51,885 nucleotides of DNA from the NCBI GenBank assembly GCA_947073765.1, contig CAMTMZ010000016.1, forward strand, positions 1 to 51,885. The letters are read 5' to 3'. Each line of letters opens with the position of its first letter. The stretch's first letter is position 1. Source of the stretch: an uncultured Bacillota bacterium (GTDB lineage Bacteria > Bacillota > Clostridia > Oscillospirales > Oscillospiraceae). The notes under the pieces were generated by a model. The model did not search any database. It was not told the origin of the DNA and was given only the letters and a program-made list of their open reading frames with translations. This document shows, piece by piece, positions 1 to 23,274 of this stretch. Both the position numbers and the translations under genes were made by a program.

Positions 1-525
1 TTCCCCGGATCCTACTCCACCGCCGGACCGGAGGCAAATTACAAATACCACGCCAAAAAGTTCAACGTGAACGTGGGGGACGTGGTGGTGGTCAGCGACC
101 AGGCGGCGGGCACCGTGGATCTTTATTTCCTTATGACAGACGGGACCACCCCGCCGGAGGAAATGATCACCGGAATGGAGAACTACCTGCGGGATAACAA
201 CATAAGGCCCATGACGGACCTGGTGCGGGTGGCCGCACCGGCGGAGGTGGAATACACCATAGACCTGGCCTATTACATCAACCGCAGCGACAGCAACCGC
301 GCCGTGGCAATCCAGGGGGCCGTGGCCGCCGCTGTAACCAAATACACAGCATGGCAGCGGACCATAGGGCGGGACATTAACCCGGATAAACTGCGGGAGT
401 TAGTCATGGCAGCGGGGGCCAAGCGGGTGGAAGTGACTGCCCCGGTCCGCCAGATCGTGGGGGCCAAGTCTGTGGCGGCCATGGCCTCCCAGGCGGTCCA
501 ATATGGAGGGCTGGAGGATGATTGA
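1..525 (+). CDS. Phage baseplate J-like protein (C-terminal part)
   Basis: The reading frame is open from base 1, so the 5' end lies outside the window. The visible 174 residues match the C-terminal half of the P2 gpJ / Mu gp47 baseplate family: an N-terminal PGSYSTAGPEANYKYHA segment typical of these wedge proteins, then a VNVGDVVVVS strand and a C-terminal domain with alternating strands and helices. In the family this protein forms the baseplate wedge of contractile tails and sits next to tail protein I, which is what follows here with an 8-base overlap. No internal start is needed; the ATG at 67 is only an internal methionine of the longer frame. Confidence 0.85.
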   Translation, partial: FPGSYSTAGPEANYKYHAKKFNVNVGDVVVVSDQAAGTVDLYFLMTDGTTPPEEMITGMENYLRDNNIRPMTDLVRVAAPAEVEYTIDLAYYINRSDSNRAVAIQGAVAAAVTKYTAWQRTIGRDINPDKLRELVMAAGAKRVEVTAPVRQIVGAKSVAAMASQAVQYGGLEDD

Positions 526-1594
526 CCTGTGCGGCAGCCGTTTCACGGACATTATGCCGGAGAACCTGGCCAGCCAACTGGAAACCCAGGCTTTTGCCTA
601 TGCGGTGGGCCGCCAGGTTGAAAAGCTGTGCATAAATGCGGACCGGGTGCGGATATACGCCGCCGTGGATGATATGCCGGAGCATATTCTGGACGTGCTG
701 GCGGTGGAACTGCGGACCCCGGCCTATAATCAGGATTTTTCCATTGAGGTCAAGCGGGAACTGGTAAAGGAAACCATACCATTTTACACAAAGCTGGGCA
801 CACCGGCGGCGGTAAACAAGATGATCCACGCTGTTTTCGGCGGCGGCAACATGGAGGAATGGTTTACCTATGGAGGGGATCCCCACCATTTCCGGGCCGT
901 GGTGAACATCACGGAAATGGAGATCAAGCCGGGGGCAATTCAAGAATTTATCAGGATCATTTCCTCTGTAAAGCGTCTTTCCAGCTGGCTGGATGAAATC
1001 CGCTTTTACCTGACCCCGGCAAAGTCCTGGGCCACGGCTGGGGGCGCGTTCACCGGGAGCATGGAAAAAGACAGCGCCACCGTGATCCCCCCGCCGCTGG
1101 AACCGCCTGGGGGCCGGTTTACCGCCATAGCCGGCGGCGGACTTACAGGCAGCTGGAGCAAAAACACGGCAACCATTCAGGCCCCGGAACTGATCAAGCC
1201 GGGCGGCAGGGTGGCCGTGATCGCCGGGGGTGCCTTTACCGGGAGCCGCCAGAAAGACACCGCAACGATCACGCCCCCGCCGCTGGAAAAGGCCGGGGGC
1301 AGGGCGGCGGGCTATATTTACGGCGTATTCATGGGGAGCCGCCGGAAAGACACCGCCACGGTCACACACCCGCCCCTGGCCAGACCGGAGGGCCGGGCCG
1401 CCGCCGCTGTCCGTGCGGGCTATATCGGAGCCTGTGAGCGGACCAGGGCGAACATAAACACAAGGGGCGCGGGAGAGGTCCCCACCGGCAAGGCCGCCAC
1501 CGGCGGCGCTGCTGGTGTGTTCCATACCTATCAACGAATTACAAGGGAGGTCAAAATCTATGGCACATTGGAAAGACGCCGCAGTTACCAATGA
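518..1594 (+). CDS. Phage tail protein I (P2 gpI-like) with C-terminal repeats
   Basis: The first ~170 residues (MIDLCGSRFTDIMPENL..., then a FYTKLGTPAAVNKMIHAVFGG motif region) resemble P2 gpI, a baseplate wedge protein. I chose ATG 518 rather than 503 because it has a GGAGGG about 8 bases upstream and gives the usual family start. From about residue 170 the protein changes character: four to five degenerate repeats of 31-32 residues, each with a GGAFTGS core, a KDTAT core and a PPPLE-GGR tail, rich in Gly, Pro and Ala. Family members usually end near 200 residues, so this extension is unusual and may be a fibre-attachment or surface-exposed stalk (inference). The 3' end overlaps the next gene by 35 bases. 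Confidence 0.8.
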   Translation: MIDLCGSRFTDIMPENLASQLETQAFAYAVGRQVEKLCINADRVRIYAAVDDMPEHILDVLAVELRTPAYNQDFSIEVKRELVKETIPFYTKLGTPAAVNKMIHAVFGGGNMEEWFTYGGDPHHFRAVVNITEMEIKPGAIQEFIRIISSVKRLSSWLDEIRFYLTPAKSWATAGGAFTGSMEKDSATVIPPPLEPPGGRFTAIAGGGLTGSWSKNTATIQAPELIKPGGRVAVIAGGAFTGSRQKDTATITPPPLEKAGGRAAGYIYGVFMGSRRKDTATVTHPPLARPEGRAAAAVRAGYIGACERTRANINTRGAGEVPTGKAATGGAAGVFHTYQRITREVKIYGTLERRRSYQ

Positions 1595-2294
1595 CGGCGT
1601 GGAAATGCTCAACGAGTGGATGGCCGGCAGGTTTATCAGAATCACCAGCGCATACGGCGGCACGGGAACCGTTGACGCGGCGTTCCTGACCGAGCAGACG
1701 GATCTTGTGGAGCGGCGGCAGCAACTTCACCTGCTGGGTGAGGAGGACAACGCGAAGGGCAAGACCGTCCAGATCCAGGTGAGCAACGCGGAGGTCATGG
1801 AGGAGTACGAACTGAACCAGGTGGGCGTATATGCCAAACTGGACCCGGAGCGGGACCCGGACGCCGAGGAGCGCCTGCTGTTCATTATGCAGGACCAAAA
1901 GGGCGTGACAATCCCGTCCGCTATGGACGCCAGTTTCATGTTGGAACTGTACGCCATGATCGGCATTACAAACAATGGCCGTTTTGACGTGAGCGTGTCC
2001 GCCGCCGGCGTGGTGACTATGGCATATCTGCGGGAGTTCATGGCCCGCACCCTCCAGGATCACAACGCGGACAGTGAGGCACACCCGGAGATCCGGGAGC
2101 AGCTGGCCAGCGTGTCCGCCAACAATGACAGCGTGGAAAACGCCGTGGCAGAGGTGGACGCCAGGCTGACCCTGCTGGAATTGATGTACCGCACCCAGGT
2201 GAGCGGCAACCCGTTCACCGTGACATTTGACAACATGGACAGCCTGCTGGTGACGGGCATATGGAACGCGGCCATGAAACGGGTGGAGTTTTAA
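1560..2294 (+). CDS. Phage tail-fibre / tail-collar protein
   Basis: The start at ATG 1560 follows AAGGGAGG and gives MAHWKDAAVTNDGVEMLNEW, the typical opening of tail-collar/tail-fibre N-terminal domains that attach fibres to the baseplate of P2-like phages. Residues 1-110 form this domain. Residues 170-215 carry a predicted helical stretch (EIREQLASVSANNDSVENAV) suited to trimerisation, and the C-terminus is short (244 residues in total), so there is no large receptor-binding tip. Receptor recognition may therefore rest on the DGR-diversified protein encoded downstream (inference). It lies between tail protein I and the Avd gene in the same direction with no terminator between. Confidence 0.7.
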   Translation: MAHWKDAAVTNDGVEMLNEWMAGRFIRITSAYGGTGTVDAAFLTEQTDLVERRQQLHLLGEEDNAKGKTVQIQVSNAEVMEEYELNQVGVYAKLDPERDPDAEERLLFIMQDQKGVTIPSAMDASFMLELYAMIGITNNGRFDVSVSAAGVVTMAYLREFMARTLQDHNADSEAHPEIREQLASVSANNDSVENAVAEVDARLTLLELMYRTQVSGNPFTVTFDNMDSLLVTGIWNAAMKRVEF

Positions 2295-2297
2295 CGC

Positions 2298-2900
2298 ATG
2301 GCAGAAAAGGAGTATGTGCTGGGGAATAAGGCGAAAGACCTATACCAATACACCCGGCAGGTAACGAAACCGGGCGCGGACGAAAAGGTGGACGTGCGGG
2401 ACGTGGCCACCGTCATGCGGAAAATGGCCACGGCGGGAACGCTGGAGGAAATGCGGGCCACCCTGACCGCCACGGCGGAGCGCCTGGAGAAAAAGCGCAA
2501 GCGCCCGTATTTCCCCAAAAGTGAGAGTTTCGGCATGATCAAGGACCTGCGTGACGCGGCCAGGGCAATCCTGCGCGGCGTATTCGCTGCTAATGAAACC
2601 CGGTTTAATGACCACCCGGAGGACCGCCTGCGGGAGATCAAGGCCGTTATTGATGAATGTGGCCTAATGCTCCAGCTGGTGGAACTGGCCCACGATTTAG
2701 GTTATACAGACGCCAAGCGGATGGGCACATGGACCAAGCGGATCCTGGACGTGAAATATATGTGCCTGGCCTGGCTGAAAAAGGACACTGAGCGGGCCAA
2801 GGCAATTCTGGCCAGCCGCCAGAGGACGGACTGCGACACCATGGTGAAACTGGTGCGTGAAATCCTGGCGGCGGAGGGCCGCCAGCAAATGAGGATATAA
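2298..2900 (+). CDS. avd: DGR accessory variability determinant (Avd-like)
   Basis: A 200-residue basic, helix-rich protein placed immediately before the template repeat and the reverse transcriptase. The pattern YVLGNKAKDLYQYTRQVTKP near the N-terminus, KxxRPYFPKSE(S)F near residues 68-78, and WTKRILDVKYMCLAW near 146-160 fits the four-helix-bundle Avd family known from Bordetella phage BPP-1 and clostridial DGRs. Avd binds the RT and the template RNA and is needed for mutagenic retrohoming. It is longer than BPP-1 Avd (128 residues) because of an insertion around residues 28-66. It starts 3 bases after the previous stop with a GGTGGAG upstream, so it is translated within the tail operon. 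Confidence 0.8.
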   Translation: MAEKEYVLGNKAKDLYQYTRQVTKPGADEKVDVRDVATVMRKMATAGTLEEMRATLTATAERLEKKRKRPYFPKSESFGMIKDLRDAARAILRGVFAANETRFNDHPEDRLREIKAVIDECGLMLQLVELAHDLGYTDAKRMGTWTKRILDVKYMCLAWLKKDTERAKAILASRQRTDCDTMVKLVREILAAEGRQQMRI

Positions 2901-2937
2901 CGCGGCGGCAGCTGCGTGATATTGGGGTATGACCTAC

Positions 2938-3061
2938 AACCGCCACCAACTGGTGGCTGCGCTCCCCGAACCTGAACAATTCCACCAACGCGTGGAACTG
3001 CAATTCCAATGGCAACGCCAACAACAACAACTGTACCAACACCTGGGGGGTCCGGCCCGCT
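2938..3061 (+). repeat. DGR template repeat (TR)
   Basis: This non-coding stretch aligns without gaps to 5011-5134 in the target gene (offset 2073). From 2940 to 3061 (122 bases) there are 16 mismatches and every one is an adenine in this copy; none of the 90 non-adenine positions differ. Read in the target frame it has 14 AAC/AAT codons, the signature of a DGR template. A further two A-to-G differences at 2938-2939 suggest the repeat begins there. Adenine-specific change with this copy as the A-rich partner identifies it as the template. Confidence 0.95.
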
Positions 3062-3229
3062 CTGATGGATAACGCCCGACCAAGTAGGCAAATGCCGAAC
3101 GCTGCGCCCCGTCAATCAAAGGAGGCCATTTCCCGTCCAAGCCCTGCGCGTGGGGTGCGGATAAACACATGGCGCTGACGCTGGCCGCCGTTTGTGCCGC
3201 CAGCTATCAGCGGCGCCCCGGCTGAACGG

Positions 3230-3257
3230 GGACCCGGCGGGGAAACGCGCCGGGTCC
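3230..3257 (+). other. Perfect stem-loop between TR and RT gene
   Basis: Arms GGACCCGGCG (3230-3239) and CGCCGGGTCC (3248-3257) pair perfectly over 10 bp around an 8-base loop. It ends 22 bases before the RT start codon and is not followed by a T run, so it is unlikely to be a terminator. It may be part of the folded template RNA or may hold down RT translation (inference). Confidence 0.6.
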
Positions 3258-3279
3258 TACATATCCCTGGGGGGATAAG

Positions 3280-4491
3280 ATGAACTATGAGGAACTGTGT
3301 TCTTTTGAGGTGCTATATAGTGCGTATAAGATCGCACGGGTGGGAAAACGGGAAAAACAGGGGACCGCCCAATATGAGGCCAACGCCCTGGCCTGTACGG
3401 AGAGACTTTCCCGGATCCTGCTAAACGGAAATTACATACCGAGCAAATTTGAAACCTTTTATGTGTATGAGCCGAAAAAACGGCTTGTGCAGGCCCCGGC
3501 ATTTGTGGACAAAGTGGTGCAACACGCGCTTGTGGATAATATCCTGTATGACGCTATCACCCGGAGTTTTATTCAGGACAGCCACGCCTCCCAGGTGTGG
3601 AAAGGTATGCACGTCGGACTGGACCGCCTGCGGGCGCAAATGCGGGAATATTTCCAGAAACGGAAAGGCCACGACGAAACGGCCCGCCGGGCCGCTGGCC
3701 TCCCATTCCGGCCCGGGGAACAATGGAACTATGCGGACGGGTGGATCCTAAAGGCGGACGTTCACCATTTTTTCGCCAGCATTGACCACGATATTTTGAA
3801 GCAGAAACTTCGGCGGCGGGTGGCGGATAACCGGGTATTTGAATTGATGTGTACTTACATTGACAGCACGGACGGCCTGCCGCTGGGCTACCAGACAAGC
3901 CAGCTTTTGGCCCTGATGTATCTGGACGAATTTGATCACTGGGTCAAGGAAACGCTACACGCCCGGTATTATGGCCGGTATATGGATGATTTTTATATTA
4001 TCCATGAGGACAAGGCCCATTTGCAAAAGTGCCTTGCACTGATCCGGGAACGGATGGACGCCCTAAAATTGGAACTGAATGGGAAAACGGCAATCTTTCC
4101 ACTGAAAAACGGGATCAATTTCCTGGGTTTCCACACCTATCTGGACAGCGGCGGCAAGGTGATCATGAAACTGCGTCGGGACAGCATAGACCGCATGAAA
4201 GCCAGGATCCGGGCGTGGCGGGCGGACTATCCGGCGGGCAAGGTGAGCCGGGACAAAATTCTGACATCGTGGAGGGCCTGGGACGCCCACGCCTCCCACG
4301 GGGACACCTACACGCTGCGCCAGAAAATCGCCGCCCAGGTTTCGGAGATCGTGGGCCTCCAACTGGAGGCCAGGAAACCGATCCGGCACCCGCAGAACGA
4401 ACAGGCCAAGAAACTGATCCAGAAAATGCGCCGGGAGGGCAAGATCAAGCCGCTGCCACCGGCGGAGCCGCCAGAGGGTTTCCCCTGGTGA
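3280..4491 (+). CDS. DGR reverse transcriptase
   Basis: A 403-residue RT with the palm motif YMDD at residues 234-237 (GRYMDDFYII) and the motif-4 sequence LGYQTSQ at 202-208. DGR enzymes carry this xGxxxSQ form where group II intron and retron RTs usually have QGxxxSP, and the change is linked to adenine-selective infidelity. An upstream aspartate motif is seen in KADVHHFFASIDHD. There is no maturase or endonuclease domain; the C-terminus is a basic thumb-like tail. ATG 3280 follows a GGGGGGATAAG ribosome site. It copies the template RNA into cDNA with errors at adenines, and the cDNA then replaces the variable repeat in the target gene that follows 28 bases downstream. Confidence 0.93.
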   Translation: MNYEELCSFEVLYSAYKIARVGKREKQGTAQYEANALACTERLSRILLNGNYIPSKFETFYVYEPKKRLVQAPAFVDKVVQHALVDNILYDAITRSFIQDSHASQVWKGMHVGLDRLRAQMREYFQKRKGHDETARRAAGLPFRPGEQWNYADGWILKADVHHFFASIDHDILKQKLRRRVADNRVFELMCTYIDSTDGLPLGYQTSQLLALMYLDEFDHWVKETLHARYYGRYMDDFYIIHEDKAHLQKCLALIRERMDALKLELNGKTAIFPLKNGINFLGFHTYLDSGGKVIMKLRRDSIDRMKARIRAWRADYPAGKVSRDKILTSWRAWDAHASHGDTYTLRQKIAAQVSEIVGLQLEARKPIRHPQNEQAKKLIQKMRREGKIKPLPPAEPPEGFPW

Positions 4492-4519
4492 CTGACTAAA
4501 CCATAAGGAGGACACGAAA

Positions 4520-6376
4520 ATGGCAAGTGTCGCATTGAGTACAAAAGCCATAGGCGCAACCGTAAAACTGAAAGAAAACGGCACCCTGGTGGACTATATC
4601 GTGGTACACAAGGGCAAGCCCTCCAGCATTTACGACGCGTCCTGCGACGGCGTGTGGCTGTTACGGAAAGAAATTTTTGAAACCCGCGCCTGGCACAGTT
4701 CCAACGTGAACGACTGGGCCAACAGTACGCTGAAAAGCTACCTGGACAGCACCTTTTTTGCCCGCTTTGACAAAGACATTCAGGCCCAGATCAAGCAGGT
4801 TAAAATCCCGTACCGTCCCGGCAGCGGAACAAGCACCACTATCAACAGCGGAGCCAGCGGCCTGTCCTGCAAAATTTTCCTGCTGTCCGCCACCGAGGTG
4901 GGCTACACCAAGGCCAACGTAAACAGCTATATCCCGAACGGTGAGGGCGCCAAGCTGGACTATTTCCAGAACGGCAACGGCACCAGTGAGAAGATCGCGT
5001 ATCTGAACGGGGCCGCCACCCGCTGGTGGCTGCGCTCCCCGTACCTGAGCGTTTCCACCAACGCGTGGTACTGCTATTCCAATGGCGGCGCCGGCAACTA
5101 CGACTGTACCGGCACCTGGGGGGTCCGGCCCGCTTTGATCCTACCCTCTAACCTCTTAGTCTCTGACGACGGCAGCGTAAACACGAACACGGCCCCGACT
5201 ACGCCGGGGAGCATTACAATCCCCGAAAATATCCAGGGCGGAAATACGATCACGGTAACGTGGGCGGCCAGCACCGACGCGGAGAATAATCTGGAGGGTT
5301 ATGTGGTGGAGCGCACCACCGACGGCGGCAGTACATGGAGCCAAATTTTCCAGGGGAACGCCACCAGCACCACCAACACCGTGCCCGTGGGGACGCAGAC
5401 GGTAATGTACCGCGTGAAAGCCTACGACAGCGACGGGCTTTATAGCAGCTACCGCATGAGCGCCCAGGTAAATGTGATCAACAACGCCGCACCCACCGCG
5501 CCGGGGAGCATTACGATCCCGGATCTGGTGCTGGGCGGATCCAGCCTGGCCGTCAGCTGGGAGGCCGCCACGGACCCGGACGGAAACCTGACCGGTTATA
5601 GCCTGGAGCGCCAGGTGGACGGCGGGGACTGGGCGGAGGTCTACAAGGGCACGGACTTGGCCTATACCGACACGATCACGCGGGGCTGGTTTAGCATCAA
5701 TTACAGGGTGCGGGCCTATGACAGCTATGGAATTTTCGGCCCCTATGCCACGGGAACCTCTAAGCCGGTGGACAACAACCGCGCCCCGGTGATCACCAGC
5801 GACACCGCCAGCGGCACGGACCTGGGCGTAAAGGACGCCGGTTTCTCTGTGGCCTACACCGCCGGGGATGAAGATGGGGACCCCGTAACTGTTACCGAGG
5901 CAATCGACGGTGCCCAAGTACGGAAATTTGTGGCGGGTGCGGGCGTTTCCAACAGTTTCGACGTGACCGAGGAAACCTTTATGAAACTGCTGAACGGCCC
6001 CCACTCCATGACCATCACCGCCACGGACGGCAAAGTGAACGCCGTCTATGTTCTGACATTCACCAAGGAAGTCACCGAGGCAACGATCACCCTGAAAGAT
6101 CCCAGGCCGGCGGACGCCAAGATCACCATTTGCGTGTTGTCTGTGGCCGGGTCCGTTCCCCAGGACGCTGTTTTCAAGGTGGAAGTGACCAACAACGCTA
6201 TGGACGACGCGCCGGTGTGGGAGGATTGCACCACCGAGGTGAAGAACGGCGGCAACCACATTTTTGAAAATGAGACAGCGGAAAAAGGTTTTGCCTTTAA
6301 TTTCCGCGTGTCGGTGAAGCGCGGAGCCAGCGGAAAGGGCGGTTATATCAATTCTGTGCAGGGAGGTTTCCAATAA
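4520..6376 (+). CDS. DGR target protein: DUF6273-like variable domain plus Fn3-like repeats
   Basis: A 618-residue protein starting at ATG 4520 behind AAGGAGG. Residues 1 to about 210 resemble the DUF6273 family, ending in WWLRSPY...GVRPALILPS, which recalls the C-type-lectin / formylglycine-generating-enzyme fold used by DGR targets. The variable repeat covers residues 168-198: positions 168, 175, 177, 178, 184, 186, 190, 192, 194, 195 and 198 are template-Asn codons that now read R, Y, S, V, Y, Y, G, G, Y, D and G; 181, 188 and 193 remain Asn. Residues about 225-315 and 325-415 look like two fibronectin type III domains (each with a TVTWAAS- or AVSWEAA-type strand), and 420-515 like a cadherin/Ig fold. 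The likely role is a phage surface adhesin for receptor binding. Confidence 0.85.
   Translation: MASVALSTKAIGATVKLKENGTLVDYIVVHKGKPSSIYDASCDGVWLLRKEIFETRAWHSSNVNDWANSTLKSYLDSTFFARFDKDIQAQIKQVKIPYRPGSGTSTTINSGASGLSCKIFLLSATEVGYTKANVNSYIPNGEGAKLDYFQNGNGTSEKIAYLNGAATRWWLRSPYLSVSTNAWYCYSNGGAGNYDCTGTWGVRPALILPSNLLVSDDGSVNTNTAPTTPGSITIPENIQGGNTITVTWAASTDAENNLEGYVVERTTDGGSTWSQIFQGNATSTTNTVPVGTQTVMYRVKAYDSDGLYSSYRMSAQVNVINNAAPTAPGSITIPDLVLGGSSLAVSWEAATDPDGNLTGYSLERQVDGGDWAEVYKGTDLAYTDTITRGWFSINYRVRAYDSYGIFGPYATGTSKPVDNNRAPVITSDTASGTDLGVKDAGFSVAYTAGDEDGDPVTVTEAIDGAQVRKFVAGAGVSNSFDVTEETFMKLLNGPHSMTITATDGKVNAVYVLTFTKEVTEATITLKDPRPADAKITICVLSVAGSVPQDAVFKVEVTNNAMDDAPVWEDCTTEVKNGGNHIFENETAEKGFAFNFRVSVKRGASGKGGYINSVQGGFQ
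5011..5134 (+). repeat. DGR variable repeat (VR)
   Basis: This is the target copy of the template repeat, within codons about 164-205 of the target gene. Substitutions relative to the template are A to G (most), T (six) or C (one). The last 43 bases are unchanged except at template positions 3026-3039, and the GGGTCCGGCCCGCT end probably acts as the initiation-of-mutagenic-homing site. Unlike many DGRs, no clear inverted repeat is visible just downstream. Confidence 0.95.
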
Positions 6377-6867
6377 TGGGACTGAATATTATTCGGCAGG
6401 ACAGTGTGCGGGGCCTGCGGCTGAAAAGCAAGGGGATCCAGCCCCCAAAGGACTGGAACAATGTGGAGCAGGTGCGGGAGGCCGTGCGCCAGGAAATCGG
6501 CCTGGACTGTACCGCCGCCATTTATGCGGGGATCGACGTGGGCGGATCCCATTACAGTCTGACCGAGCATGACCAGACCGAGATCATGGCCCAATACACC
6601 ACCGTGAAAGAGGGGGCCAAGGCGGTCCCCTACCACGCGGACGGGGAACTGTGCAGAATGTACCCGGCGGAGGAGTTCACCGCGCTGGCCCAGGCGGCCA
6701 CCGCCCACGTTTTCCGGCACCGGACATATTGCAACCACGTCAACGCATGGATCAAGCGGGCCGGGCTGGAGGAACTGCAGGGGATCGTCTACGGCGCGGA
6801 ACTTCCGGCGGACCTGGCGGAGAACATGGCGGCCATTATCCAGACCGCCGGAGGCGGCGCGGCATGA
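6376..6867 (+). CDS. Conserved phage protein of unknown function
   Basis: A 163-residue protein whose ATG overlaps the target gene stop by one base, so it is translationally coupled. I recognise the general pattern (VREAVRQEIG, then GIDVxGSHYSLTEHDQTEI, AVPYHADGELCRMY, HVFRHRTYCNHVNAWIKRA) as a recurrent gene just after tail-fibre genes of firmicute phages, sometimes labelled DUF4376-like. It has no signal peptide or membrane segment. Position suggests a fibre assembly or chaperone-like role, as with other genes that follow tail fibres, but this is inference only. Confidence 0.6.
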   Translation: MGLNIIRQDSVRGLRLKSKGIQPPKDWNNVEQVREAVRQEIGLDCTAAIYAGIDVGGSHYSLTEHDQTEIMAQYTTVKEGAKAVPYHADGELCRMYPAEEFTALAQAATAHVFRHRTYCNHVNAWIKRAGLEELQGIVYGAELPADLAENMAAIIQTAGGGAA

Positions 6868-8292: not shown

Positions 8293-9294
8293 ATGACAGA
8301 AAACCAACTGCGCCAGAAAGTGGTGGACATTATCAACGCATGGATCGGAGCCACAAAAGGCAGCGCCAAACACCTGGATCTTTTGGAGGTCTACAACAAT
8401 TACAGGCCCCTGGCGCGGGGCTATAAGGTCCAGGTGAATGACGCTTACTGTGCCACTACGGTCAGCGCGGCATATATCCGGGCCGGGATCGCGGAGTACA
8501 CCGGGACCGAGTGCGGCGTGGAAAAATACACGCTGGTGGCCAAAAAGCTGGGCATATGGGTGGAGAACGACGCCCACACGCCCAAGATCGGGGACGCCTG
8601 CGTGTATGACTGGCAGGACAACGGCGTGGGCGATTGCACCGGGGCCGGGGACCACATCGGGATCGTGTCCAAGGTTTCCGCCGGGTCCTTTGTGGTGACA
8701 GAGGGCAACATGACCGGCGGCAAGGTGGGCACCCGGACCATGGCCATAAATGGCCGCTACATACGCGGGTTTATTTGCCCGGACTTTGCGGCGATTGCCA
8801 AAAAGCTGGGCGGAACCACCACCGAAACCACGCCGCCCACCACGACGGCCCCCGGCGCAGTCCAGGGCACCGCCCACACCGTTGCGGCGGGTGATACCCT
8901 GGGAAAGATCGCGGCCCGCTACGGCACCACTGTGGACACCCTGGCGGCCATCAACGGGATCCAAAACAAGAACCTGATCCGGGTGGGCCAGGTGATCTAT
9001 TTGACAGAGGCGGCGGCAGCTGTGGGCAAGCTGGCCCGGCTGGGCGTGATCAATTCCCCGGACTACTGGAACACCGCCGCCGCGTCCGGCAAGGTCAAAT
9101 ATCTGGACCGCCTGCTGATCCAGGCGGCAGGGAAGATCAAAAAGGCCGGGACCCGCACCGCCACCCCGGAGGCCGGCGTGGCCGCCCTGGTGGCCGCTGG
9201 CGTGATTAACACGCCGGACTATTGGCTGGCCAACTATCGCACATTCCCTAGCCTGGACGCGCTGCTGTGCGCCCTGGGCGGGGCTGTGAAATAA
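8293..9294 (+). CDS. Endolysin: CHAP/NlpC-type peptidase with LysM domain
   Basis: A 333-residue lysin. Residues about 1-165 form a cysteine-peptidase domain of CHAP/NlpC type with Cys53 in NDAYCATTVSAAY and His121 in GDHIGIVSKV as the likely catalytic pair; such enzymes cut peptidoglycan peptide or amide bonds. A Thr/Pro linker (residues 175-190) leads to a LysM peptidoglycan-binding domain (about 194-239, HTVAAGDTLGKIAARYGTT). The C-terminal 90 residues hold two copies of a LGVINSPDYW / AGVINTPDYW motif, a small repeat found at the end of other clostridial phage lysins. It follows an AAAGGGAGG ribosome site and has no signal peptide, so export needs a holin. Confidence 0.88.
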   Translation: MTENQLRQKVVDIINAWIGATKGSAKHLDLLEVYNNYRPLARGYKVQVNDAYCATTVSAAYIRAGIAEYTGTECGVEKYTLVAKKLGIWVENDAHTPKIGDACVYDWQDNGVGDCTGAGDHIGIVSKVSAGSFVVTEGNMTGGKVGTRTMAINGRYIRGFICPDFAAIAKKLGGTTTETTPPTTTAPGAVQGTAHTVAAGDTLGKIAARYGTTVDTLAAINGIQNKNLIRVGQVIYLTEAAAAVGKLARLGVINSPDYWNTAAASGKVKYLDRLLIQAAGKIKKAGTRTATPEAGVAALVAAGVINTPDYWLANYRTFPSLDALLCALGGAVK

Positions 9295-12066: not shown

Positions 12067-13113
12067 ATGAATTACAAGGGTTATCATCATATCCAATGGG
12101 AACAGCGTTTGAAAATTGAGGGGGCGCTGCGGACCGGAGCGAAACCGGCGGCGATTGCGCAAGAATTAGGAGTATGCAAGAAAACAATATACAATGAAAT
12201 TGCGCGGGGAATGTGCGTTCAACAAACCAGCGAATACGAATTTGTGGAAAGATACTGTGCGGACGTGGCAGAGCGGAAATACCAGGAGAATTTGAGGGCC
12301 AAAGGGCCGGACATTAAGCTGGGGAAAGATTTTGCTTTTGTGGAGTACATAGAGGACCAGATCATAAACAAAAAGAGATCCCCCGGTGCCGCCCTGGCGC
12401 AAATCAAAATAGACGGGAAAAAGTTTGATACAGAAATCTGCGAAACCACCCTTTACAACTGGATTTATCGCGGTGACATCTTTATGAACGTGACAGAGGA
12501 GGATCTGCTATATAAAGGGGATCACCGGAAACCGGAGGACCGGGACCGCCAGAAACGGGCCAGACCGGCAAAGGGGGACACCATCGAACAGCGCCCAGAG
12601 GAGATCAACAGCCGGGACACGTTTGGCAACTGGGAAATGGACAGCGTTATGGGGTGCAGGGGCAGCAAGGCGGCCCTGGTGGTCCTGACCGAGCGGCTGA
12701 CCCGCTACCCCCTTATTATCCGGGTGCCTGATCACACCATGGAAAGCGTGGTCCGGGCGCTGGACCGCATAGAGCGGCGCATGGGCGCAAAGTTCCGGGA
12801 AGTGTTCCAGTCAATCACGGTAGACAACGGCTGCGAGTTTCAGGACTGCCAGGGGATGGAACGATCCAAGAGGGCCAGGAAACCGCGCACGAAAATATAT
12901 TATTGCCATCCGTATTCCGCCTATGAACGAGGATCCAATGAGAACATGAACCGGATCATAAGGCGGTTTTTTCCAAAGGGGACCAACTTCGACGACATAA
13001 CGGCGGCGGAGGTGGCGCAGGTGGAGGAGTGGCTGGCCAACTACCCACGCCGGATCCTGGACTGGAAAACGCCGCAAATGCTTTTTGACGAATACATGAC
13101 CCTGGCGGCCTGA
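12067..13113 (+). CDS. IS30-family DDE transposase
   Basis: A 348-residue transposase starting at ATG 12067 behind AAGGAGG. The N-terminal helix-turn-helix is visible (GAKPAAIAQELGVCKKTIYNEIARG, residues 24-48). The catalytic triad is intact: Asp192 in WEMDSVMG, Asp253 in TVDNGCEF and Glu287 in YERGSNEN, with the DD(33)E spacing of IS30. It is not flanked by obvious inverted repeats within 150 bases; upstream the gene is joined to the phage regulator block and it is the last complete gene before the prophage edge. It could be an IS insertion or the phage's own transposase/integrase. Confidence 0.88.
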   Translation: MNYKGYHHIQWEQRLKIEGALRTGAKPAAIAQELGVCKKTIYNEIARGMCVQQTSEYEFVERYCADVAERKYQENLRAKGPDIKLGKDFAFVEYIEDQIINKKRSPGAALAQIKIDGKKFDTEICETTLYNWIYRGDIFMNVTEEDLLYKGDHRKPEDRDRQKRARPAKGDTIEQRPEEINSRDTFGNWEMDSVMGCRGSKAALVVLTERLTRYPLIIRVPDHTMESVVRALDRIERRMGAKFREVFQSITVDNGCEFQDCQGMERSKRARKPRTKIYYCHPYSAYERGSNENMNRIIRRFFPKGTNFDDITAAEVAQVEEWLANYPRRILDWKTPQMLFDEYMTLAA

Positions 13114-13418: not shown

Positions 13419-13456
13419 AAGAATCTCGCAGCCTGTACAGGCTGCGAGATTCTTTT
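13417..13456. terminator. Bidirectional terminator
   Basis: A perfect 40-base palindrome (AAAAGAATCTCGCAGCCTG and its complement) with A and T runs at both ends. It separates the truncated gene from the convergent LCP gene, whose stop overlaps its right edge. Confidence 0.9.
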
Positions 13457-14600
13457 ATGTGTGGTAGCTCTCCGCTTTGGCGATATTCATATCCAGGAGG
13501 GTCAAATCCTGGTTGTAGGGGTTGATCAGCCTGTTTACGGTTTCCACGGTCTTTTCCTGATCCAGTTCATAGCAGTATTTATACCCCCGATACTTACCGA
13601 AACCGTTTCCCTCCAGCGTGGCGGTCTCCACGGCGGTGGAGGGGTCCAGTCCCATAGCCTGGGAGGCAAAATAAAGCATCTCGTCCATGGACAGGTCAGT
13701 GCTCACATTTTTGTTGAAAATCTCCACAAAGCCGTTGATTTTGGCAATGTTGTTCCACGCCAGCACCTTCTTAGCCAGGGCGATAAGGAGTTTCTGCTGA
13801 GTTTGGGTGCGGCCGGTGTCGGTATAGCCGCTGCCGTCGTTGTTCTTCCGGAAGCGGGCTACCTCCATGGCCTGCTGGCCGCCCAGCACCTGCCGGCCCT
13901 CCTTGTAGTGGATGTGGAGATCCTGACCGGGGGTGGGATCGTCGTAGTCCATGTCACAGGGAACATAGAAGTCTACGCCGCCCAGGTAGTCCACCAGGGT
14001 AATAAAGCCCTTGATATTTACCTTAACATAGAAGTCGATGGGGATGCCCAGCATGTGGGACACGTCCTCTACCCGCTGTTCTACCCCTCCTTTGCCGTAT
14101 ACCAGGTGGGGATTGCCGCTCTCCCGGGCTACCAAAGTGTCCCGGGGGATGGAGACTACCCCTATGGTTTGCTTCACCGTGTCGTAGCACATGACCATCA
14201 TGGTGTCGGTGCGATAGCCCTCAACATCAGTGGCGGCGAGGAAGATTGTGTACACGCCTTCCCGGCGGCTTAAGACGCGATCCGCCGGCTCAGAGGGAAT
14301 GCTGGACGCAGTCCCGCTGGAACTGGTGTTAAAATTGGGTCCAAGTGTCTGGGCCGGTCCGTTTTGGCTGGGCGGGATTTTCTGCTTTTGCTCCGGAGCC
14401 CTGATGGTCAGGGTAAAAGCAATATACACTGCCACAATGAGGGCGGAAAGAATGACCAGCGCCTTATAAAAGCCGGAGGCGACTGAGGCCGCGGTGCTCC
14501 GCCTGCGTTTTTGGGGACGGTGGCGCGGGGGATGCCGGGGCTCCATTCTGTGGGGCGGCGGATCATTCCGGTAGTCGGACCGCCGCCGGCGCATATTCAT
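13455..14600 (-). CDS. LytR-CpsA-Psr (LCP) family cell-wall glycopolymer transferase
   Basis: About 381 residues from ATG 14600, which follows GGAAGAGAG; the frame is open further upstream but without a ribosome site. Residues 1-50 are basic and cytoplasmic, followed by one membrane segment (ALVILSALIVAVYIAFTLTI) and a Pro/Ser-rich linker. The extracellular LCP domain follows: RTDTMMVMCYD, VSIPRDTLV, a YGKGGVE segment, FITLVDYLGGVDF, HYKEGRQVLGGQQAMEVARFRKNN. The conserved Arg and Asp residues that hold the polyprenyl phosphate are present. Such enzymes attach wall teichoic acid-like or capsular polymers to peptidoglycan. It is a single-gene unit between terminators. Confidence 0.88.
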   Translation of the reverse strand: MNMRRRRSDYRNDPPPHRMEPRHPPRHRPQKRRRSTAASVASGFYKALVILSALIVAVYIAFTLTIRAPEQKQKIPPSQNGPAQTLGPNFNTSSSGTASSIPSEPADRVLSRREGVYTIFLAATDVEGYRTDTMMVMCYDTVKQTIGVVSIPRDTLVARESGNPHLVYGKGGVEQRVEDVSHMLGIPIDFYVKVNIKGFITLVDYLGGVDFYVPCDMDYDDPTPGQDLHIHYKEGRQVLGGQQAMEVARFRKNNDGSGYTDTGRTQTQQKLLIALAKKVLAWNNIAKINGFVEIFNKNVSTDLSMDEMLYFASQAMGLDPSTAVETATLEGNGFGKYRGYKYCYELDQEKTVETVNRLINPYNQDLTLLDMNIAKAESYHT

Positions 14601-14757
14601 ATATCTCTCTTCCAAAGGGGTCCCTCCCCAAATATAATACCCTCCAAGTATACTCGGTTCGACCCGCTTCGGCAAGAGTTAGTTGTGTCAATTCATAAAA
14701 AATTAAGAATTATGTCACCCTGAAGGGATCCCTCTTTCCGGGCGGGCTGCCCCATCC

Positions 14758-21744: not shown

Positions 21745-23274
21745 ATGACTACCGCGCAAGCCTGTATTATGGGTACCATCATTCTCTACCTCTGCTTCGT
21801 CATTTTTACTGGCGTGATGATCGGCCGCCGGTCCAAAAAGAGCGCCGAGGGCTTCTACCTGGGCGGCCGGGGCATGGGGCCGCTGGTTACCGCTATGAGC
21901 GCCGAGGCCTCTGATATGAGCAGCTATCTGCTTATGGGCATCCCCGGACTCGCCTACCTCTCCGGCGTAGCTGACGCCAGCTGGACCGCGATTGGCCTGG
22001 CCGCGGGCACCTACCTCAACTTCCTGCTGGTGGCCCGGCGGCTGCGCCGCTACAGCGTCAAGCTGGATGCCATCACCATCCCCAGCTTTATCTCCAAACG
22101 ATATGGGGAGAAAAAACCCGTTATTATGTGCATCTCAGCCCTGATTATCCTCATCTTTTTTGTGCCCTATGTGGCCTCCGGCCTGGCGGCTATCGGCAAG
22201 CTGTTCAACAGCCTCTTCGGCTGGGACTACATGACAGCTGTGGTGATCGGTGTGGTCGTGATCATCAGTTATACCTCAGTAGGCGGCTTTTCCGCCGTGG
22301 CCACGATGGACCTGATCCAGTCCATCATCATGACCATCGCTCTGGCCATTATTGTGGTCTTTGGGATTGTGCAGGCTGGGGGGATGGACGCAGTGCTGGA
22401 TCATGCCCGCACCCTGCCCGGGTTCCTCAGCTTTGGGGAGACCTATAACGCGGCCGCCAATTCTGCCGAGCCCTACGGTCTGATCCGCGTTGTCTCTATG
22501 ATGGCCTGGGGCCTGGGTTACTTTGGCATGCCCCATATCCTGGTGCGCTTTATGGCCATCCGAGATGAGAACGAGCTGAAGCTGTCCCGGCGTATTGCCT
22601 CCGTCTGGGTGGTGATCTCCATGGGTGTGGCGGTGTTCATCGGCATCGTGGGCCGTGCCGTCTCCGCGGCTGGCCGCATCCCCTTCCTGGAGGGCAGCGC
22701 CACCGAGACAGTGATTGTCAAGCTGTCTGATCTGCTGTCCAGCTACGGCATTGTGCCCGCTATCGTGGCCGGGTGTATTCTGGCCGGTATCCTGGCCGCC
22801 ACCATGTCCACCGCTGACAGCCAGCTGCTGGCTGCCTCCTCGGCCTTTTCGGAGAACCTGGTCCAGAATGTTTTCGGCGTGAAGCTGACTCAGAAGCAGA
22901 CCATGCTGGCCGCCCGGCTGACCGTGATTGTCATTGCCATGATTGCGCTGTTTCTGGCCCGGGACCCAAACAGCAATGTGTTCCAGATCGTCTCCTTTGC
23001 CTGGGCCGGTTTTGGCGCCACTTTTGGACCGGCCATGCTGTGCGCCCTGTTTTGGAAGCGGAGCAACCAGCAGGGTATTATGGCCGGCCTGGTGGCCGGC
23101 GGAGCCATGATCTTCATCTGGAAGTTCCTGGTTCGTCCTATGGGCGGCGCCTTGGACATCTACGAGCTGCTCCCCGCTTTTCTGGTGGCGCTGGCCGCCA
23201 TTGTGGTGGTTTCCCTGGCAACCCCTGAGCCAGAGGCCGGTGTGATCAAGGCTTTTGAGGAGTATGACAAATAA
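21745..23274 (+). CDS. Sodium:solute symporter (PutP-like)
   Basis: A 509-residue membrane protein of the SSS family with about 13 predicted membrane segments. Family features seen: GRRSKKSAEGFYLGGRGMGPLVTAMSAEASDMSSYLLMGIPG near the N-terminus (Na+ site region, as in PutP), YTSVGGFSAVATMDLIQS in segment 5, and GCILAGILAATMSTADSQLLAASSAF in segment 8 with the conserved Ser/Thr sodium ligands. ATG 21745 follows GGGAGGAATTCT. PutP-type carriers import proline with sodium; substrate here is uncertain because related carriers take pantothenate or other solutes. It ends at a very strong terminator. Confidence 0.85.
   Translation: MTTAQACIMGTIILYLCFVIFTGVMIGRRSKKSAEGFYLGGRGMGPLVTAMSAEASDMSSYLLMGIPGLAYLSGVADASWTAIGLAAGTYLNFLLVARRLRRYSVKLDAITIPSFISKRYGEKKPVIMCISALIILIFFVPYVASGLAAIGKLFNSLFGWDYMTAVVIGVVVIISYTSVGGFSAVATMDLIQSIIMTIALAIIVVFGIVQAGGMDAVLDHARTLPGFLSFGETYNAAANSAEPYGLIRVVSMMAWGLGYFGMPHILVRFMAIRDENELKLSRRIASVWVVISMGVAVFIGIVGRAVSAAGRIPFLEGSATETVIVKLSDLLSSYGIVPAIVAGCILAGILAATMSTADSQLLAASSAFSENLVQNVFGVKLTQKQTMLAARLTVIVIAMIALFLARDPNSNVFQIVSFAWAGFGATFGPAMLCALFWKRSNQQGIMAGLVAGGAMIFIWKFLVRPMGGALDIYELLPAFLVALAAIVVVSLATPEPEAGVIKAFEEYDK

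Follow-up and report, generated by a model that had tools for sequence, protein, structure and literature searches.

A complete diversity-generating retroelement in a prophage tail operon, whose surroundings suggest how tentaclin-like binding proteins may hang on the virus particle

The retroelement and its repeats

We analysed a stretch of 51,885 nucleotides (the window; contig CAMTMZ010000016.1 of GenBank assembly GCA_947073765.1) from an uncultured gut bacterium (Bacillota, Oscillospiraceae). Near its start lies a diversity-generating retroelement (DGR) in a tail operon of a prophage, with the order baseplate J, tail protein I, fibre-like gene, Avd, template repeat (TR), spacer, reverse transcriptase (RT), target and DUF4376 gene. 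A preliminary description had recognised a complete DGR here, and Avd, TR, a structured spacer RNA, a DGR-type RT and a target gene were all found. We are nearly certain that this is a complete DGR with a tentaclin as its target in a prophage tail operon, an assessment that does not extend to the docking proposal made below. The features of the DGR are as follows.

2298..2900, + strand: Avd, 200 amino acids, with about 70 residues ahead of a bAvd-like core (phrog_3206 'Avd protein of DGR', 1e-24)
2938..3061, + strand: TR, 34 adenines among 124 bases
3054..3212, + strand: structured, covarying DGR spacer RNA that starts at the 3' end of the TR (RNAalifold, pair counts, model R1)
3231..3256, + strand: 9-bp hairpin right before the RT gene (sequence; consensus fold columns 336-366, 8 pairs)
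3280..4491, + strand: RT, 403 amino acids (RVT_1 1.2e-15; phrog_1423 2e-125; motifs YMDD and LGYQTSQ; tree)
4520..6376, + strand: target gene, a tentaclin of 618 amino acids (DUF6273 3e-37 at residues 43-210; FN3 fold within 223-516)
5011..5134, + strand: variable repeat (VR), residues ~164-205 of the 618-residue target
5975..6373, + strand: C-terminal immunoglobulin (Ig)-like domain of the tentaclin, proposed virion anchor (alignment A6)

Comparison of the TR with the VR showed that 18 of the 34 template adenines and none of the 90 other bases were changed (hypergeometric p ~1e-12), and the substitutions relative to the TR were A to G (12), A to T (5) and A to C (1). The preliminary counts for 2940-3061 against 5013-5134 (122 aligned bases, 16 differences, 16 of 32 adenines, 0 of 90 other bases; p ~1.5e-11) proved exact, and the repeat reaches two adenines farther left, to 2938 and 5011. 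At the 3' end, the earliest non-adenine mismatch is C3062 versus T5135. It is also correct that 11 of the 14 template Asn codons encode another residue in the target frame. When all 61 contigs of the assembly (2.33 Mb) were searched at the DNA level with 2925-3085, the TR, one VR and nothing else came up at E up to 0.001. The VR lies inside the target gene and not at its end, because the target is a tentaclin, in which an N-terminal DUF6273 part is followed by Ig/FN3 domains. A pyrimidine-rich tract (CCCTCTxxCCTCTT) in 5135-5180 recurs among relatives and is perhaps explained by a conserved peptide, LPSxLL.

RT searches gave 26 relatives (15 viral and 11 genome loci), and a mechanical finder returned a TR/VR pair in 18 of them and in the window. 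Over these 19 pairs, 326 of 646 adenines differed versus 2 of 1742 other bases, counts that are biased to clean pairs by a finder that admits few non-adenine mismatches; the variation among relatives is thus nearly limited to template adenines, as the preliminary description had expected. Six of the eight loci without a pair (L005, L008, L011, L017, L024 and L025) lie on contigs that stop in the RT or before the target end, L016 has no DUF6273 match, and the eighth is L023. A second scan found pairs in 47 of 59 RT loci, some of which are contigs already counted under another locus number, and 783 of 1589 adenines and 93 of 3970 other bases differed under a rule that admits about one mismatch per end, every pair having one or two. 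In one relative (L010:6694-6825), a rare non-adenine VR change creates an in-frame stop within the VR, and the target open reading frame (ORF) ends after 168 residues.

Eleven pairs of loci had RTs less than 8% apart. In five of them (L006/L007, L006/L009, L007/L009, L020/L027 and L015/L026) the two VRs had no non-adenine differences: L020/L027 differed at 20/33 adenines and 0/91 other bases (flanks 1/800), L007/L009 at 12/35 and 0/100 (flanks 1/800), and L015/L026 at 22/34 and 0/92 (flanks 2/400 upstream and 32/400 downstream). The other six had 2 to 9 non-adenine VR differences, nearly all where the templates also differ. The VRs of the window and its relative L022, one of these six pairs, differed at 18 of 32 adenines and 2 of 90 other bases, and their flanks at 2 of 800. 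Such variation at adenine sites between near-identical phages supports the earlier claim that the system has been active since the template diverged, and by this sequence comparison the DGR is judged to be recently active. Where the templates of two loci differ, the VR matched its own TR at 534 of 542 non-adenine sites (51 pairs sharing members), and we infer that information passes from TR to VR.

Reverse transcriptase and Avd

The motifs YMDD and LGYQTSQ, named in the preliminary description, are both present in the RT. In a tree with five group II intron RTs of relatives as outgroup, the window RT and 12 DGR-type RTs, including Bordetella BPP-1 brt, shared one side of a 100/100 branch; the DGR-type label is our own grouping, and the Aeromonas and Vibrio members were labelled by neighbouring genes and not by a TR/VR check. 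The NCBIfam group II model gave the window RT 103.6 bits against a cut-off of 300, and this score together with the tree branch ruled out that it is a group II intron RT. Retrons were excluded because of similarity scores, as the tree did not separate the retron-like rows: in BLASTP with the window RT, the best retron-like match reached 37 bits and BPP-1 brt 114 bits. The best match in a PDB sequence search was 8ub7 'Reverse transcriptase' (4e-29), which we take to be the BPP-1 DGR enzyme, and a group II RT matched at 4e-9.

The N-terminal part of the Avd protein is common to 17 aligned members. Among the phages of PMC5883640, the available text reports Avd homologues in Mushu and Lagaffe only; we found that FP_Brigit and Lelie also encode an Avd of the phrog_3206 family (6e-35 and 5e-36).

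A conserved spacer RNA

An alignment of 16 of the 19 spacers first aligned (A7; L004, which has an insertion, L006 and L024 were omitted) shared a fold of 34 pairs, in which 93.6% of cells were paired and 17 of the 34 pairs were changed on both sides, the structure having been derived from the alignment on which it was scored. Covariation was 0.333 versus 0.175 in shuffled alignments, none of 500 shuffles reached the observed values (1 of 500 for further pair types), and slid controls had 30-46% of cells paired. The model R1 gave a match in 50 of 55 sources, placed immediately before the RT match or running into its start; it hit 50 of the 51 sources with an RT (FP_Mushu was missed) and 0 of the 4 without, where several sources are near kin of the training rows and the window itself is among them. 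One stray R1 match (18.8 bits) lies elsewhere in FP_Brigit, and R1 searches of BPP-1 and FP_Mushu gave no match. Compared with its relatives, L004 (3375-3656) has some 120 bases inserted into its TR-to-RT spacer, midway through the RNA structure.

Rfam family RF03077 (RT-2) matched the window at 3070-3238 with 18.5 bits (E 0.22), below its cut-off of 40. The same family matched the TR-to-RT spacer of L028 with 44.5 bits, over the cut-off (1 of 15 sources), and that of L013 with 31.1 bits (E 0.0018), below it (1 of 6 sources); the Rfam search gave nothing above cut-off in nd4, nd12, Brigit, Lelie, Toutatis or 14 of 15 other relatives. The conserved covarying spacer thus ties RT-2 to the DGR spacer, above cut-off in one relative, and a literature search had no paper on the spacer RNA of these cassettes among the matches listed. 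In BPP-1 the spacer folds and recruits the RT-Avd complex (PMC12875486); by analogy, the window spacer would have the same role.

The target and its neighbours

The target contains the Ig/FN3 domain chain of tentaclins, and its AlphaFold2 model had a mean predicted local distance difference test score (pLDDT) of 89.7. Its C-terminal Ig domain was recognised by overall identity over the last 204 residues (FP_Brigit 57%, nd12 41%, nd4 36%); PMC10743442 assumes an anchor role for this domain and, in the text available, does not name the virion partner of tentaclins. The genes around the DGR, and a peptide that ends one of them, are listed here.

503..1594, + strand: tail protein I, P2 gpI-like (Pfam Tail_P2_I 2e-18)
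1560..2291, + strand: tail-fibre-like protein, the peptide carrier (PHROG tail fibre 27381 5e-24, 7037 2e-19)
2154..2291, + strand: conserved 46-residue peptide that ends the fibre-like gene, proposed tentaclin docking peptide (alignments, co-occurrence)
6376..6867, + strand: DUF4376 protein, tail gene 3' of the target (Pfam 8e-11; phrog_1348 tail fibre 1.5e-5)

Farther downstream lies a CHAP-LysM gene (8293-9294). The contig end cuts the baseplate J gene at the window start, so the prophage is visible in part only. On its right side is an IS30-like transposase gene (12067-13113; HTH_38 and rve both slightly under the Pfam cut-off), adjoined by a host LytR_cpsA_psr gene (13455-14675); nd12 likewise has an IS30 family transposase beyond its DGR.

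A C-terminal peptide proposed to dock tentaclins

Alignment of the fibre-like gene showed that its N-terminal part is variable and its 46-residue end conserved; phrog_22716 (unknown function) matches the last 60 residues of the protein. A profile of this peptide gave 88 matches, and all except that of FP_Mushu end at the last residue of their ORF. In FP_Mushu a diverged peptide was recognised by eye and at 13.9 bits on a 103-residue ORF. Among 50,697 phage records (E up to 1), 12 had the peptide and all 12 belong to the 18 with the tentaclin C-terminal domain, duplicate records of one phage being included in these counts. The six domain records without it are three Mushu records, scaffold MT836657, Dulem virus 33 and Brevibacillus phage Emery, which has a partial match.

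Viral contigs were then searched with the C-terminal domain alone, and 80 of 200 loci were kept. Where more than 4.5 kb lay upstream of the tentaclin, the peptide was found upstream in 46 of 46 contigs, 36 with and 10 without an RT match in the stretch; 8 of the 46 had given rows to the profile, and the remainder (38/38) includes some close kin. With more than 2.5 kb upstream it was found in 54 of 55, the exception being L040 (3.9 kb upstream, with an RT). Among 250 genomes of the family, sampled from a larger number, 8 contained the domain (12 copies) and 6 the peptide (10 copies). Of nine strong peptide matches, eight (one in G000, four in G070, two in G209, one in G247) shared the strand of a domain copy and stood no more than 3.7 kb upstream of it, and the ninth (G234) was on another contig of the same genome as a domain copy. 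The tenth match (G001) was weak and had no domain copy. Domain copies with no peptide were seen in G188, a draft assembly in about 370 contigs, and in G068 and G014 (both diverged, ~86 bits). In G070, each of four tentaclin C-terminal domains has its own upstream peptide.

The proteins that end in the peptide belong, depending on the rule, to 4 to 6 unrelated N-terminal families: clustering gave 4 groups from full-length sequences, 5 from the first 120 residues and 8 from the first 80, and of these 8, one (L006) is cut short by a contig end and another (L024) belongs to the main group in shortened form. Of the L024 fibre gene (4297-4641, Flintibacter muris), residues 130-244 alone are left, preceded by an unrelated start, and the contig continues upstream. 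Six viral loci (L081, L086, L087, L094, L098 and L106) have two peptide-ending ORFs each, and in the four inspected, one is of fibre-like length and one has fewer than 100 residues.

Pairwise distances over 46 loci (981 pairs) gave rank correlations of 0.84 between peptide and anchor domain, 0.75 between anchor and RT, 0.64 between peptide and RT, and 0.42 between the N-terminal part of the carrier and the anchor. With the RT controlled for, peptide and anchor kept a partial correlation of 0.71, which 0 of 500 permutations, uncorrected for phylogeny, reached; with the anchor controlled for, that of peptide and RT was 0.03. On the strength of this co-variation and of the co-occurrence, we read the relation as protein-protein docking: tentaclins would be mounted, somewhat more probably than not, via a portable 46-residue C-terminal docking peptide on unrelated phage proteins, mostly fibre-like. 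With the same moderate confidence, any protein that ends in the peptide would offer a place to mount a tentaclin, whether or not that tentaclin is diversified by a DGR. For the fibre gene, the AlphaFold2 model had block-mean pLDDT values of 50-68 over the last 46 residues.

One carrier weighs against docking on the tail only. In FP_Brigit, a second carrier (L151:2953-3771, FP_Brigit 21952-22770) stands directly before the portal gene, in the head module and far from the tail module; tentaclins might therefore sit in two places.

Discussion

We propose that an avd-TR-spacer-RT transcript would supply the RNA, whose folded spacer would recruit the RT-Avd complex. The RT would copy the TR to cDNA with errors opposite adenines, and the cDNA would replace the matching VR in the tentaclin gene, as the BPP-1 work (PMC12875486) leads us to infer for both steps. 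In this way the DUF6273 (C-lectin-like) domain could be altered at as many as 14 Asn-encoded positions. The resulting binding protein would carry its diversified head at the N-terminus, on an FN3/Ig stalk; the head may bind a host or gut surface, and the last domain of the stalk may dock on the conserved peptide that ends the upstream fibre gene.

Several points weigh against this account. The activity of the DGR is read from sequence comparison. The Avd, which the preliminary description had proposed to check against family models, matched phrog_3206 and scored under the cut-offs of Pfam (bAvd) and NCBIfam (DivGenRetAVD). For the RT class, clustering with group II introns or retrons would have told against a DGR; the window RT stood apart from the group II RTs, and five retron-like rows, none of which scores above its own family cut-off, are long-branched and are not firmly placed, four of them falling on the DGR side of a larger tree. 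The C-lectin fold is unconfirmed: matches to the whole target structure were filled by FN3/Ig chains, mainly at residues 223-516, and phmmer with the DUF6273 part against PDB gave two weak matches only (E 0.16 and 0.28). No hairpin after the VR was found in 17 of 17 loci (60 bases 3', exact arms of at least 6, loop 3-9), unlike the inverted repeat described for BPP-1 in PMC12875486; the same source states that this stem-loop is not strictly required in BPP-1, and it is not a defining feature of DGRs.

Among other explanations, the one that survives best is that the tentaclin is a Hoc-like capsid decoration and not an appendage of the tail fibre, which we consider unlikely. It is favoured by the match to phrog_10993 'Hoc-like head decoration' (7e-196), by the label Hoc-like that PMC5883640 gives to the targets of FP_Brigit and FP_Mushu, and by the FP_Brigit carrier beside the portal gene, but the cassette sits in an operon of baseplate and fibre genes, and the PHROG matches of the nearest carrier are fibre-like. 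It is more doubtful still that a once-active DGR is now dead and the divergence a relic. Activity that is read from sequence comparison, the cut of the prophage by the contig end and the IS30-like transposase gene would suit a relic; against it, the Avd, RT and target ORFs are open, and of the 32 adenine sites that the window shares with L022, 18 differ between the two VRs, with flanks that differ at 2 of 800.

There is very little chance that the RT is that of a group II intron, a retron or a defence system and that TR and VR are incidental: generic group II, Drt3a and retron profiles do match it, and four of five retron-like rows share its side of the tree, but the group II outgroup, NCBIfam scores far below cut-offs, and the linked Avd gene, TR and structured spacer speak against this. 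That TR and VR are an ordinary duplicate diverged by drift or Asn-codon selection without retrohoming is barely credible: a template rich in AAC/AAT codons could let codon selection mimic the adenine bias, but the absence of non-adenine changes in the window, their rarity over the 19 pairs (from a finder that favours clean pairs) and, strongly, the concerted evolution of VR with its own TR stand against it; drift of a duplicate was ruled out by the 0/90 and 534/542 counts.

Our reading is a complete, recently active DGR that diversifies a tentaclin. The value of the locus lies in two by-products, a proposed partner peptide for tentaclins and a conserved spacer RNA, and the peptide is the part worth following: a specific partner is now proposed for a described family, and docking, if true, would answer how tentaclins are attached and would make the tail-or-capsid question testable.

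Comparison with known systems

Bordetella phage BPP-1 resembles the window in having Avd, TR and RT and a tail gene that contains the VR, but its order is different (fibre, mtd with the VR at its 3' end, avd, TR, brt), its RT is 28% identical to the window RT, and R1 matches nothing in it. Phages nd4 and nd12 (PMC10743442) share with the window the order Avd, TR, RT and target, the VR in the 5' part of the target, a DUF6273-like N-terminal part, an Ig/FN3 stalk and a related C-terminal domain; they differ in an RT that is about 46% identical and in a second target gene, which the paper describes, whereas the window has a single VR. Faecalibacterium phage FP_Brigit (PMC5883640) has the same order of J, I, fibre, Avd, RT and target, with 54% identity in the RT and 58% in the DUF6273 part, and differs in its second peptide carrier near the portal gene. 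Lagaffe and Mushu produce virions according to a section heading of the same paper. The DGR of the window is one further, well-supported case of the kind described in nd4, nd12 and FP_Brigit, and the surroundings of its cassette suggest how tentaclin-like binding proteins may hang on the virus particle.

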